A stretch of DNA of 49,361 nt, taken from positions 1 through 49,361 of the forward strand of contig JAPOVS010000042.1 in assembly GCA_026708055.1 (NCBI GenBank), in the 5' to 3' direction. The notes below the pieces were generated by a model. It was not told the DNA's origin. It ran no database searches and was given only the letters and a program-made list of their open reading frames with translations. Shown here one piece after another: positions 2,670 through 49,121 of the stretch. How positions within the stretch are numbered: the stretch's first letter is position 1; each line of letters begins with the position of its first letter. Made by a program: the position numbers and the translations under genes. This DNA is from a bacterium. Its GTDB lineage: Bacteria; Actinomycetota; Acidimicrobiia; Acidimicrobiales; CATQHL01.

Positions 2670-4208
2670 TCAGTTGATGGCGCGCTCCCGGTCGGCCCAG
2701 TAGGGGGCGCGGAGCTTGTACTTCTGGAGTTTGCCGGTGGCGGTGCGCGACAGAGCCTCCCGGAACTCCACCGAGGTGGGGCACTTGTAGTGGGCGAGGT
2801 GCTCGCGACAGTGGTCGATCAACTCCTGCCCGGTGACATCGGCCCCGGGGGCCGGCACCACCAGCGCCTTGGGGGTCTCGCCCCAGCGCTCGTGGGGCAC
2901 GCCGATCACCGCCACCTCCGCGACAGCGGGATGGGCGAACAGGCAGTCCTCCACCTCGATCGAGGAGACGTTCTCGCCGCCACTGATGATCACGTCCTTG
3001 CGCCGGTCGGTCAGCACGAGGTACCCGTCGCCGTCCAGGTAGCCTCCGTCGCCGGTGTGGAACCAGCCGCCGGCCAGCGCCTCGTCGCTGGTCTCGGGTT
3101 GCTCCCAGTAGCCCTCCATGACGTGGTTGCCCCGGGCCTCCACCTCGCCGTCGGCCGAGACGCGCACGCTGATGCCCAGCGCCGGCACGCCCTGGCGCAC
3201 CAGCCGCTCGGCCCGCTCGGCGGGTGCCAGGTCGTCCCATTCGGGGCGCAGCCGGTTCATGGTCAGGTACGGCGCCGTCTCGGTCAGCCCGTACAGCTGC
3301 ATGCACTCCCAGCCCAACTCGGTCTCCATGCGTTCGATGGTGCGCCGCGGCGGGGGCGCTCCCGCCACGGTCATGCGCACGGTGCCCGAGCCGGGGATGG
3401 GTCCCTGCCAGTCCTCGGCGGCCGCCAGGACCGCCGCCACCACCGCCGGCGCCCCGCACAGGTAGGTGACCCCGTGGCGCTGGATGCGCCGCAGGATCTC
3501 GGCGCCGTCGATCTTGCGGATCACCACCTGCGTGGCGCCCACACCGGTCAGCGCGTACGGCATGCCCCAGCCGTTGCAGTGGAACATGGGCAGCGTGTGC
3601 AGGTAGACGTCGCGGTCGCTCACCCCGGCGCTCCAGCCGAACGTCACGGCGTTGAGCCAGATGGTGCGGTGGGTGATCTGGACGCCCTTGGGGCGCGCCG
3701 TGGTGCCGCTGGTGTAGTTGATGGCGGCGGTGGCATCCTCGTCGGGCTCCCAGGGGCGCGGCTCGACATCGCTGCCGGCGAAGAGCGCCTCGTCGGCCTC
3801 GGATCCGATGATGAAGCGGTGCTCGCAGTCCACGCCGGCCAGATCGTCGGCCAGTTCGGGGTCGATCAGCAGCATCCGGGCCCCGCAGTGCGAGACGATG
3901 TAGTCCACCTCGGCGGTGTTGAGACGGAAGTTGACCGGCACCGAGATCCGCCCCGCGGCGCTGACCCCCAGCATGGTCGTGACCAGCCGGGCGGCGTTGT
4001 GCGACACGATCGCCACCCGTTCTCCGGTACCGAGCCCGAGACGGTCGAGGGAGGCGGCCAGCGCCCGCGTCCGTGCCGCCACCTCGCCGTAGCTGAGCGT
4101 CCCCCAGCTCGGCGCCGGCTGGTCGGGTTCGTCGATCAGCGCCGGGCGGTCGGGATAGACGTGCGCCGCCCGGTCGATGAAGTCCCCCACGGTCAGCGGT
4201 ACTTTCAT
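2670..4208 (-). CDS. AMP-forming acyl-CoA synthetase/ligase
   Basis: ANL-superfamily enzyme of 512 residues that activates a carboxylic (probably fatty) acid to acyl-AMP and then acyl-CoA. The A3 motif NYTSGTTARPKGVQ binds AMP-phosphate, QLYGLTETAP is the A5 motif, HTGDGGYLDGDGYL holds the adenosine-binding aspartate, and DRRKDVIISGGENV is the hinge region. The C-terminal TGKLQKYKLR supplies the catalytic lysine. The start is set at ATG 4208, which has GGGAGG just upstream and agrees with the family N-terminus; the open frame extends further upstream to 4382 without family similarity. The substrate cannot be read from the sequence. The neighbouring dehydrogenase gene is divergent, about 217 bp away. 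Confidence 0.9.
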   Translation of the reverse strand: MKVPLTVGDFIDRAAHVYPDRPALIDEPDQPAPSWGTLSYGEVAARTRALAASLDRLGLGTGERVAIVSHNAARLVTTMLGVSAAGRISVPVNFRLNTAEVDYIVSHCGARMLLIDPELADDLAGVDCEHRFIIGSEADEALFAGSDVEPRPWEPDEDATAAINYTSGTTARPKGVQITHRTIWLNAVTFGWSAGVSDRDVYLHTLPMFHCNGWGMPYALTGVGATQVVIRKIDGAEILRRIQRHGVTYLCGAPAVVAAVLAAAEDWQGPIPGSGTVRMTVAGAPPPRRTIERMETELGWECMQLYGLTETAPYLTMNRLRPEWDDLAPAERAERLVRQGVPALGISVRVSADGEVEARGNHVMEGYWEQPETSDEALAGGWFHTGDGGYLDGDGYLVLTDRRKDVIISGGENVSSIEVEDCLFAHPAVAEVAVIGVPHERWGETPKALVVPAPGADVTGQELIDHCREHLAHYKCPTSVEFREALSRTATGKLQKYKLRAPYWADRERAIN

Positions 4209-45757: not shown

Positions 45758-45896
45758 CTACGAACTTCGGCTACCGCTGCATTGCCGGGCCCGGGGTACG
45801 AGTTCGTCGGTGCAACAGGCGTGGCCGAGCGGCTCTGGAGCAACCTCGAGTGCCGCTACCGGGAGCACCGGGCCCGCCTCGCCGAGGTGGAGCGGT

Positions 45897-45946
45897 AATG
45901 ACATATTCACAAGGACAATCCGGCTGTATCTCACGAATATGCCATA
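45897..45946. repeat. 50-bp palindromic element, left copy
   Basis: Starts with AATGACATA and ends with TATGCCATA, an imperfect version of the right copy at 47686-47735: same length, same orientation, same end motifs and followed by the same AACT. It ends 7 bases before the stop codon of the AlbA_2 gene. The interior is poorly conserved. Confidence 0.65.
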
Positions 45947-45953
45947 ACTGCGA

Positions 45954-47693
45954 TCATTGCCTTGCGGCGGGCGGTCCAGGGATGACGTAGTGGCTGCCCC
46001 GCCTGCTGCCGCGGCGCTCCAGGCGGCCGGCGGCGACGAGGGCGTTGAGCACCCGCAGCGCGGCCACCCGGTCGAGGCCGGTTCGGTCCCGGACAGCCTC
46101 GTTGGTCACGTGCCCTTCCCTCGCCAGCGCCATCACCACCTCACCGGGGTCCACCGGCCGGACACGCACACCGCCGGGGCCCTCGACGCCCTCGAGATGC
46201 GGCGCCAGCACGTAGGTGGCACCCGAGCCCGTGCCCCGCTGTTGCACGAAGCCGCGGTCGCGCAGGCGGCGGAGTGCCGCCCGGGCCTCGGCGGCGCCGA
46301 CGTCGAGCAACCGGCGGACGTGGCCGTTGGTGAGCGTCTCGCCCCGGGCGACCTCCAGCAACACGCGGGCGTCCCTCCCCTCGGTGCCGTCCGGCATTCC
46401 CCCGGGGTCGCCGACCGAGTGGGGCCGCAGGGCGCCGGACGCCTCGCCGCTCAGCGTTCGAGCCAGCCAGGCCCGCTCCGGCGGCGCCGCCTCGGACCCC
46501 AGCAGCAGCGTGACGGTGACCGACGAGTCGTCCGCCTCGAATCGCGGCGGTGCCATGAGGTTCAGGGCCATGTGGTCGCGCATGAGGCGGACGCCGCGTC
46601 CCGCGTCCTCGGCGATGCCGAAGAAGCGCAGCGTGCGGATCAACAGCACGTTGCGGGGGACCGACCGGAGGGCCAGCAGGTCGAGGGACACGCCGTCAGG
46701 CAACCCGCCCGGCGAGCGCACCACCACCCGGTCGGGTCGAATCTCGATGCGCACCGCCTCGGCAGCCGCCGTCGGCGCGTAGGACCGGTGGGCGACGGCG
46801 TTGGCGATCGCCTCCCGCAGCACGGCCCGGGGAAGGCGGTGCAGTTCGTGGCGCAGCACGCCCAGCACCACCAGGTCGAAACCCAACTCGTCGAGCACGA
46901 AGTCGACGGCCGCTTCGATCTGCCGCTGCAGCGGACCGCGGAACTCGGCGCGCCGGTCGTAGTCCAGCGCCTCGGACCGGTAGCGGAACACCTCGACGAA
47001 CGGCTTCCCCAAGACCCCGGCGGGATCGGCCAGCAGGTACAGCGCCCCAGCGACGCTCAGGCGGTCCCCGTCGCCGTTGTGCACCAGGAAACCGCTGTCG
47101 CGCAGGCGATCCAGCAACTCCGACTCCGGCGCTCCCGGCGACACCGGCCACTGCCACGCCCCGGACAGTTCCCCCGCCAGGCCGGGATCGATGGCGTCGG
47201 GCCGCAGCGCTGTGGGAGCCGCCTCCACCGTGCGCACGAACCGCCGGGCGATGAAGTCGGAGAGTTCGGCCCCGAGCAGCGTGTGGTTGGAGACGCCGCG
47301 CCGCTCTTTCACCGTGCCGCTTGCGAGTTGCGCGAATCCGTCCCGGCGACGCCCGACCCCGATGGCCACGACCGTGCGCCCATCCACAATGAGCCGATGT
47401 ATGTGGTGCGGTCCCAGGTCGCGCACCTGGCCCAGGGTGTTCCGGAGCCGGGTCTCGCCGCCGGCTGCGAGGTCCACGCCGCGGACCACCCCGTCGTCGG
47501 TCACGCCGAGGAGCACCACCCCGCCATCGGCGTTCGAGAACGCCATCGCCGTCTCGGCGATGCGGGAGTGCGACACACCCTCCTTGAACTCGACATGAAG
47601 ACCCTCGCACGGGAACTCCGCAGCAAACTCCGCGGCGGTGAGAGTGACCGCAGGCGCGCGCCCAGAGGCAGGGTGGAACATCGGATATGACAT
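45954..47693 (-). CDS. AlbA_2 (Schlafen-like) plus GHKL ATPase regulator
   Basis: 579-residue protein. An AlbA_2 DNA/nucleic-acid-binding domain comes first (CEGLHVEFKEGVSHSRIAET, MAFSNADGGVVLLGVTDDG). A GHKL ATP-binding C-terminal subdomain follows (VLREAIANAVAHRSYAPT with catalytic-type Glu and Asn, and SPGGLPDGVS), then at least one, probably two winged-helix segments at the C-terminus (NGHVRRLLDVGAAEARAALRRL; TNEAVRDRTGLDRVAALRVLNAL). Such proteins are predicted transcription regulators, sometimes in defence loci. The start ATG 47693 lies inside the right palindromic element; ATG 47681 is the alternative. It stands alone between two 50-bp elements. Confidence 0.8.
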   Translation of the reverse strand: MSYPMFHPASGRAPAVTLTAAEFAAEFPCEGLHVEFKEGVSHSRIAETAMAFSNADGGVVLLGVTDDGVVRGVDLAAGGETRLRNTLGQVRDLGPHHIHRLIVDGRTVVAIGVGRRRDGFAQLASGTVKERRGVSNHTLLGAELSDFIARRFVRTVEAAPTALRPDAIDPGLAGELSGAWQWPVSPGAPESELLDRLRDSGFLVHNGDGDRLSVAGALYLLADPAGVLGKPFVEVFRYRSEALDYDRRAEFRGPLQRQIEAAVDFVLDELGFDLVVLGVLRHELHRLPRAVLREAIANAVAHRSYAPTAAAEAVRIEIRPDRVVVRSPGGLPDGVSLDLLALRSVPRNVLLIRTLRFFGIAEDAGRGVRLMRDHMALNLMAPPRFEADDSSVTVTLLLGSEAAPPERAWLARTLSGEASGALRPHSVGDPGGMPDGTEGRDARVLLEVARGETLTNGHVRRLLDVGAAEARAALRRLRDRGFVQQRGTGSGATYVLAPHLEGVEGPGGVRVRPVDPGEVVMALAREGHVTNEAVRDRTGLDRVAALRVLNALVAAGRLERRGSRRGSHYVIPGPPAARQ

Positions 47694-47735
47694 ACTCGTA
47701 TCTAGTACAGTAGCCGTCTGTACGATTATGTCATA
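47686..47735. repeat. 50-bp palindromic element, right copy
   Basis: Perfect outer arms TATGACATA (47686-47694) and TATGTCATA (47727-47735), and an inner pair GTACAG (47705-47710) and CTGTAC (47718-47723). It overlaps the start of the AlbA_2 gene and ends one base before the next gene's stop codon. It could be the operator of that gene and/or a recombination site. Confidence 0.7.
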
Positions 47736-47736
47736 A

Positions 47737-48480
47737 CTAGACTCCGGGCCCGGCGCTCGGGGCCGTGACGCGGTAGCCCAGCGTCTCGAGCGCGCCGACC
47801 GCCTCCTCGGGGAACTGCCGGGCCGTCGCCCGGGCCTGTTGCCGCTCCCACGCATCCACCGATTCGAGCACCTTCGGCTTCCAACCCGCCTTCCAGTCGT
47901 TGAAGAGATTCTCCCTGTCCAGGAACAGCAGGAACTCCTCGAGGGTCGGCCGGAACCGGCGCCCGCCGACGGGGAAGTGCAGCGCGTGCAGATCGGGAGC
48001 GGGCCGACCGCTGGATCCGTACATCCACGCCAGTTCCGGCGAGTTCGCATGCAGATGAACGTGCGCCGCGGCCCGATCACGGCCCAGCCAACTCCGGTCG
48101 TACTCGACCCGTACGAGCGGGCGCGGCCGTTTGCGCCCCCCGGTCACGTCAGCCCAGAGCCCGACCAGGGAGGTGGCGACTCGCAGGTGACCACCGGTCG
48201 GGCTCATCTCGACGTTGTAGTGCGCATTCAGGAACAGTGCAGGCGCGCTCGGCGCATCAGCGGCACGGAGGAGGGCGAGACCCCCGGTCAGGTCGCTGTG
48301 GCGTTCAACGACCCGGACGAACGCCAGATCGTCGTCACGGTAACTCGTGGCCTCGAACCTGGCCGGCGTGTCGATTGCCCCGACGAGCACCGCGTTCAGG
48401 CTGCCCACGAACTCCTCAACGCGTGGCCGAAGATTCCGTGCCGTCACCGCCCGAGCAACGCGTTCTTGTAGAGAAGCCAC
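47737..48480 (-). CDS. unrecognised 247-aa protein, second gene of a two-gene module
   Basis: No family recognised. It opens with a helical LQERVARAVTARNLRPRVEE region. Candidate active or structural residues are in AAHVHLHANS (HxHLH) and DLHALHFPVGGRRFRPTLEEFLLFLD; the C-terminal 60 residues are helical and rich in Trp and Arg. Not predicted to be secreted or membrane-bound. The gene overlaps the preceding 55-aa gene by 37 bases. Small-then-large overlapping order recalls toxin-antitoxin pairs, but nothing in the sequence proves that. ATG 48480 has no strong ribosome site. Confidence 0.6.
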   Translation of the reverse strand: MASLQERVARAVTARNLRPRVEEFVGSLNAVLVGAIDTPARFEATSYRDDDLAFVRVVERHSDLTGGLALLRAADAPSAPALFLNAHYNVEMSPTGGHLRVATSLVGLWADVTGGRKRPRPLVRVEYDRSWLGRDRAAAHVHLHANSPELAWMYGSSGRPAPDLHALHFPVGGRRFRPTLEEFLLFLDRENLFNDWKAGWKPKVLESVDAWERQQARATARQFPEEAVGALETLGYRVTAPSAGPGV

Positions 48481-48611
48481 TCACCTCGACACTCTGCGTC
48501 GGTCAGCAGGTCCGCCTCGCCTTCGGCCATGAACTCCTCGAACGTCAGGCCCGCCCGCCGAGCCGTCTCCGTGCAGATCTCGACGATTTCCTCTCGCGTG
48601 ATGATCCTCAT
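48444..48611 (-). CDS. unrecognised 55-aa acidic protein
   Basis: Small acidic, helix-rich protein (IITREEIVEICTETARRAGL, then FEEFMAEGEADLLTDAECRG). ATG 48611 follows a GCAGGAGGCGCC ribosome site, much better than any upstream start in the open frame to 48755. Its 3' end overlaps the start of the 247-residue protein by 37 bases, so both are made from one transcript. Not a known antitoxin fold by eye. Confidence 0.65.
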   Translation of the reverse strand: MRIITREEIVEICTETARRAGLTFEEFMAEGEADLLTDAECRGEWLLYKNALLGR

Positions 48612-49121
48612 CGTGGTGGCGCCTCCTGCAGGCTCGATCCGGCTAGTCCTGTCCCCGGAGCCGGCCGACATACTTGCCGCCCACACCCAACACGCAGCGC
48701 GATCACGCGCAAGACACCGTACAAGCCCAAGCCGCTCGGCCGAATCGCCGCCCACGTCAGCCTGCGTGCAGACCGGCGCACATCACGGGGAACCCTCGAC
48801 GGCGCCCCAAGTCCGGCGGTCAACGTAGCGGCGCCCGTGCCCACCGCCACCCCGCCCCGGATCCGATCGATTGTCACGCCCAAGCCGCAGACCGTCCCGT
48901 CGGGCCGCACGAGATCGACCAGCACCTTCACGCGTCCCGCAAACCGGTCTGACCAGCAGATTCGCAACCCTTCTGCGCCTCCCCACCGGCCGTCCAGCGA
49001 TATCACCTTCCTCGACCCGGACGCGCTCTTATGCTGAAGGCACGTCGCCGGCCCCAGCCCGCTGACCCGGCCCTTCGCGCGTAGCGCCATGCCAGCAACA
49101 AACCAACGATGGGAGCACTCC
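48612..49121. other. 510-base stretch without a recognisable gene
   Basis: Open frames run on both strands here (for example minus 48608-49144, 178 codons), but none shows a family motif, and all have the odd Arg/Pro/Ala composition of antisense frames in GC-rich DNA. It must hold the promoters of the 55-aa gene (minus) and the right-edge gene (plus); no clear boxes seen. Confidence 0.5.

Follow-up and report, generated by a model that had tools for sequence, protein, structure and literature searches.

Introduction

AlbA_2/GHKL proteins are widespread and have been linked to phage defence; we found no DNA site reported for them, and a literature search of limited coverage returned no published description of operators for the COG2865/AlbA_2 protein family. 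The closest solved relative of the protein considered here, both by profile (E 6.9e-27) and by fold, is PDB 3lmm (DIP2311), a structural-genomics entry from Corynebacterium titled 'uncharacterized protein', which has the same fold family and domain order and for whose COG2865-type family the literature searched offered no operators. A comparable layout of sites is known from the lac system, in which there are several cognate palindromes (O1/O3) and LacI at O3, located at the 3′ end of lacI, acts as a roadblock that blocks transcription of its own gene (PMC3711431). Unlike the lac arrangement, both sites of our locus flank only the regulator's own gene, with the primary one over the start codon, and the protein family is unrelated to LacI.

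A gene that sits beside palindromic DNA and is mobile as a small unit is also a feature of REP/RAYT systems and integron attC cassettes, and is common to the gene described here. Unlike in those systems, however, the elements of our locus are not amplified, were not found alone and are not attC-shaped, and the unit carries neither a tyrosine transposase (REP/RAYT) nor an integrase (integron). Both identities were considered and rejected: an attC site needs 5′ RYYYAAC ... GTTRRRY 3′, whereas the ends of the elements read GTTATG ... CATAAC, which is the reverse order and not RRR, and a REP/RAYT system is expected to have many dispersed palindromes, whereas the 3.9-Mb genome holds three element sites.

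Here we describe the locus, which lies in a window (the whole stretch of DNA analysed, 49,361 nucleotides) from a member of the Acidimicrobiia. Judging from sequence comparison, the two palindromes that enclose the gene are probably operators at which its own product acts, not the ends of a mobile gene.

A solitary regulator gene between two palindromes

The gene occupies 45954..47693 on the minus strand and encodes a 579-residue AlbA_2/HATPase_c_4 (GHKL)/tandem winged-helix regulator, as delineated by Pfam, an alignment of 18 homologues and an AF2 model. Its start codon (ATG, 47693-47691) begins an N terminus, MSYPxFHP or MxYPxFHP, that is conserved in the alignment, and its stop codon is at 45954-45956. 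A Schlafen AlbA_2 domain (47334..47606; PF04326, E 3.3e-10) is followed by a HATPase_c_4 (GHKL-like) domain (46506..46757; PF13749, E 6.2e-18) and, in the AF2 model (mean pLDDT 83.7), by two tandem winged helices, all encoded on the minus strand. The first winged helix (residues 441-496, 46206..46373) has a MarR_2 match in Pfam and a helix-helix-helix-strand-strand succession in the model, and the second (residues 516-570, 45984..46148) is seen in the model. This order of AlbA_2, HATPase_c_4 and C-terminal winged helices is that of AlbA_2/GHKL/wHTH (COG2865-like) proteins, and we take the protein to be COG2865-like. Among its structural relatives Schlafens rank after 3lmm, and weaker fold matches include the RNA-binding winged helices of SelB bound to SECIS RNA. 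No recombinase domain or known transposase domain was found in the protein with Pfam. PADLOC gave only partial matches, to proteins from unrelated systems, and these were set aside; NCBIfam has no model for three of the window's proteins. The gene is solitary and stands beside TA-like genes, and its payload is presumably a Schlafen-type RNase serving defence.

The palindromic element at the 5′ end of the gene, a candidate primary operator over the start codon, has a 50-bp core at 47686..47735 (47684-47737 with the outer bases; model search E 4.9e-8), and its symmetry was reached by 0 of 60 shuffles. On the plus strand the core reads TATGACATACTCGTA-N20-TACGATTATGTCATA, with its CATAAC end at 47737. 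Read on the gene strand, the outer arm (47721..47735) is TATGACATAATCGTA and the inner arm (47686..47700) is TACGAGTATGTCATA, within which the start codon falls. The C that closes CATAAC is shared with the upstream gene, whose stop codon (47737-47739) has it as its last base. The element at the 3′ end, a candidate second operator just after the stop codon, has its core at 45897..45946 (45895-45948 with the outer bases; E 1.4e-6; arm match reached by 0 of 200 shuffles) and reads AATGACATATTCACA-N20-CACGAATATGCCATA on the plus strand, with its CATAAC end at 45948; the core is 7 nt and the CATAAC end 5 nt from the stop codon. The spacers of the two elements agree at 2 of 18 positions. TGnCATAAT, which resembles an extended -10, is present in both arms through the symmetry of the palindrome, and there are no convincing promoter hexamers.

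The first-pass annotation of this DNA had pointed to two 50-bp elements bracketing the gene, and they are real: across 100 dinucleotide shuffles of the window, the number of matches expected for the pattern ATGACATA-N24..40-TATGYCAT was 0.00. Their coordinates also bear out that the left element lies 7 bases beyond the stop codon and that the right one overlaps the start. The annotation was right to call the left copy degraded (10 of 14 arm positions agree), but the right copy, described as perfect, has one mismatch (13 of 14); and both cores are indeed of one length, but their shared orientation says little for palindromes that are nearly symmetric.

Some neighbours deserve mention in their own right. 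The convergent neighbour on the 3′ side is a remnant of the 3′ end of an XRE/HigA-like gene (45810..45898, plus strand; an 82% match to G005:C541:12050-12288; ORF 1052-1504 of L006). This 88-bp remnant adjoins the left element, and in G005:C541 a full-length gene faces the same element. On the other side, the family of the gene at 47737-48480, together with its small upstream partner (48444-48755), occurs elsewhere as three tandem copies that are 80-91% identical (L099:3923-8302, in G002:C76) and intermixed with VapBC-like and XRE genes; the family has no Pfam or NCBIfam name.

The start-codon palindrome is conserved in layout and free in spelling

Homologous loci were collected by a search of relatives, a GTDB scan (including MAGs named Acidimicrobiia and Chloroflexi) and searches of the class and phylum. 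A scan of viral contigs gave no relatives of the gene, and tblastn against plasmids and phages gave partial matches only, at ≤36% identity. The family is sporadic, being present in 11 of 395 genomes of the class at E ≤ 1e-60.

In nearly all close homologues (37-91% identity) the start codon is overlapped or adjoined by a palindrome, the inner arm of which in most stays at a nearly fixed offset of -6 to 0 from the ATG; L116, L118 and the distant paralogues mostly have no start-codon palindrome by the same test. The spelling varies by lineage (TATGACATAATCGT, TATGCCATACTTGA, TATGTGGCATTTGT and AATGGGGGGTTTGT), and still both arms of each site match, with a symmetry of 11-14 of 14 positions in most sites. 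Roughly, the arm consensus is GTTATG-N5-(H)TTYGT, inverted and with fixed spacing; across 58 arms, conservation is highest at positions 1-4 (TATG) and 11-12 (TY), and position 5 varies almost freely. Elements are 48-51 bp long or, at both sites of L013 and of L117, 58-59 bp and thus longer by about one helical turn; the exceptions are a length of 44 at the truncated C82 gene and, for second sites that are weak, 57 in L120 and 60 in L041. Separately, a 64% homologue (L111/L040) lacks the C-terminal stop context and runs into an extension of ~170 aa; the palindrome at its 5′ end is retained, and a 3′ element is absent.

A second copy recurs in several lineages

The arms are repeated after the stop codon in about seven independent lineages. 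A second copy 3′ of the stop is present in the window clade (four loci), in L112, where the gene is frameshifted and both elements are still intact, in L115, where it lies ~130-180 nt past the stop, and in L013, L117 and L120, with L041 a possible and weak case; the second copies of L120, L041 and L117 are individually weak, and those of L117 and L120, which an automated 5′/3′ 16-mer test missed, rest on inspection and arm scans. In L113/L119 the second copy instead precedes the operator by ~100 bp and follows an M16 peptidase gene; the corresponding site has no element in eight of nine relatives that have that peptidase gene but other downstream sequence, and one arm-like stretch in the ninth (L149). 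None was found in L011, L012, L111, L114, L121, L122, L123 or L124.

The two sites of a gene resemble each other more than they resemble the sites of other genes: own-pair arm similarity averages 9.9 of 15, against 7.8 between genes (permutation p 0.0023, nine lineages), with arm registers set by hand and two pairs scored in a poor register, which works against this result. A length class is also common to the 5′ and second elements of one gene (48/48, 50/50, 58/58 and 58/59), except in L041 and L120, and the spacers of paired sites are unrelated (2-6 of 18 identical in most, L013 being an exception). In L018 a CTACTCTAA arm recurs 61 nt past the stop with a 15-of-16 match. Other AlbA_2 subfamilies repeat the two-ended layout with unrelated palindromes. 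The paralogue L035, in the same genome as the window, has AAAGAT-N6-ATCTTT at 1377, 1427 and 3118, a 5′ pair and a single 3′ copy around a gene that ends at 3165, and L026, in gene orientation, has it at 150, 252, 302 and 2158, three 5′ and one 3′ of a gene that ends at 1968.

The second copy could be a relic without present function, either an operator whose tandem gene copy has been lost or something that a duplication left behind. The repeat of 153 bp on either side of the paralogue L170 contains the gene's last codons and a palindrome, as would be left after a tandem copy, and ~650 bp past the stop of the L115 gene lies what remains of another copy's start (ATTATGTCATATCCAATGTTTCG, MSYPMF), suggesting former tandem homologues. 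We nevertheless regard this explanation as quite unlikely: the 3′ elements have CATAAC at either end, as opposed to the coding-constrained CATATCC of the 5′ operators, and so are not recent copies of them; arms and length have been kept while the spacers are unrelated, which speaks of selection; and the 3′ element recurs across the lineages listed above.

A different possibility is that the elements act as RNA, forming hairpins at both ends of the mRNA that the Schlafen-type domain or the winged helices bind or cleave for autoregulation of translation or decay. The start codon does lie within a stem, as RNA the elements fold with energies of -8 to -25 kcal/mol, G.U outnumbers A.C by 13 to 5 among 18 transition-type arm mismatches on the gene strand, and the SelB winged helices with SECIS RNA are among the weaker fold matches. 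On the other hand, RNA has no need of a fixed loop length with a one-helical-turn alternative, 31 other mismatches stand against the 13 G.U, the reverse strand folds about equally well, and the upstream second element of L113/L119 may be untranscribed. The fixed spacing and the 31 other mismatches favour DNA over RNA as the form that is recognised, and RNA hairpins seem to us an improbable account.

The gene moves singly, and the palindromes stay with it

Such elements are not confined to one locus: an exact-arm search of the same genome matched the two window sites and one further element only, at C82:27221-27262, which lies 3′ of the stop codon of a truncated homologue (locus L025). The same pattern search in 60 relatives gave further matches only in G005 and G007, and a covariance model found six sites in eight congeneric genomes (two in C42, one in C82, one in G005:C541 and two in G007:C96), each at one end of a member of this gene family; by that model no element was present in the five congeners that lack a close gene copy. 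Nowhere in the own genome, the eight congeners (model) or the 60 relatives (pattern) did an element stand away from the gene.

The annotation had suggested a mobile single-gene cassette, and the part of this proposal that concerns the gene itself has fared well. The G007 homologue (91% protein identity) bears both elements, and its gene is 92% identical in DNA to that of the window genome (G000) between unrelated flanks, with homology that begins precisely where the 5′ element has its outer edge (window 47736) and ends inside the 3′ element (45932). In G359 a homologue stands alone between two genes that are adjacent, as an empty site, in most congeners; the exact edges of this insertion are blurred by variable intergenic sequence, and no target duplication is readable. 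(A gap at the same site in G417 was followed up and proved to hold an unrelated gene.) Five of about 48 AlbA_2 loci have a single AlbA_2/GHKL gene enclosed by direct repeats, which are 64-153 bp long and 86-95% identical: L165 (2758-2848 and 4647-4737), L170 (1404-1556 and 3023-3175), L172 (770-843 and 2363-2436), L122 (1227-1305 and 3247-3325) and L017 (629-692 and 2824-2887). The downstream repeat of L165 and that of L170 take in the last codons of the gene, a trace to be expected of tandem duplication or integration, and self-comparison of ~150 kb of other sequence gave three comparable repeats, one of them a tandem gene pair. AlbA_2 genes thus move or duplicate singly; nothing ties this movement to the palindromes.

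Whether the elements themselves are recombination sites or transposon ends, on which the AlbA_2/GHKL protein or some unknown recombinase acts, is another matter. The sharp G000/G007 boundaries, the G359 insertion, the bracketing repeats and the outer arms of L013 (the G005 homologue), lengthened by an extra GTTATGTGGA, could all be read in that way. Site-specific recombination needs a shared crossover, however, and recombination sites are disfavoured because the paired centres have no common sequence. The elements occur solely at the ends of one gene family, homologues with one element exist, L113/L119 have the second element upstream, where relatives without the gene have no such element as an empty site, the G359 junction shows no readable target duplication, and the protein has no recombinase domain by Pfam. 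Homologues that have the gene without the left element, and element copies at this gene family only, are the very findings that the annotation had said would argue for a plain operator, and both were made, the homologues without a second copy being mostly ≤51% identical, except L111 (~64%), whose C terminus is altered. We consider recombination sites unlikely.

Discussion

The annotation's other suggestion, a paired operator, is the one we favour, because the arms co-vary within a gene, the spacing is conserved apart from a variant longer by one helical turn, and the 5′ copy lies on or beside the start codon, and because the layout persists in relatives whose palindromes are spelled differently. 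The layout fits an autoregulatory operator with an accessory operator. In this model the protein would be a dimer, each subunit of which would read one 16-bp bipartite arm with its two C-terminal winged helices, a number that would suit such an arm. Bound at the start-codon element, the dimer would repress its own transcription.

The second copy, for which our proposal is more tentative, may be an accessory operator; it is not essential, because about eight homologues lack it. It may raise the local repressor concentration through a ~1.8 kb loop to the first site, or it may be a roadblock to RNA polymerase coming from the convergent neighbour. Where a gene has a 3′ element, its neighbour there is mostly a convergent gene or remnant (window, C82, G005, L117, L120 and L013; exception G007), and where it has none, the neighbour is mostly in tandem (L011, L012, L113/L119, L121, L114 and L111; exception L123). 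Orientation was scored by eye from ORF lists, leaving out L112, L115, L122, L124 and L041, and the contrast of 6:1 against 1:6 (Fisher two-sided ~0.03 by hand calculation; ~0.07 with the window clade counted once) comes from a small sample in which the pattern was noticed post hoc. We hypothesise that such a roadblock might shield the gene from opposing transcription and be avoided where a downstream gene would be silenced. It is very unlikely, to our mind, that the AlbA_2/GHKL/wHTH protein uses both palindromes for self-repression and also for its own mobilisation, which would make the locus a minimal, self-transferring single-gene element without a known recombinase.

With paired operators, the gene would carry both of its control sites and would arrive in a new genome as a self-contained, self-silenced single-gene unit. 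For a family linked to phage defence, sequence comparison by itself yields a predicted operator, as GTTATG-N5-TTYGT inverted repeats or, in another subfamily, as AAAGAT-N6-ATCTTT, which makes binding and self-repression directly testable. The two-ended layout recurs with palindromes of unrelated sequence, which suggests that single genes that are transferable, and possibly toxic, carry their own silencing at both edges.
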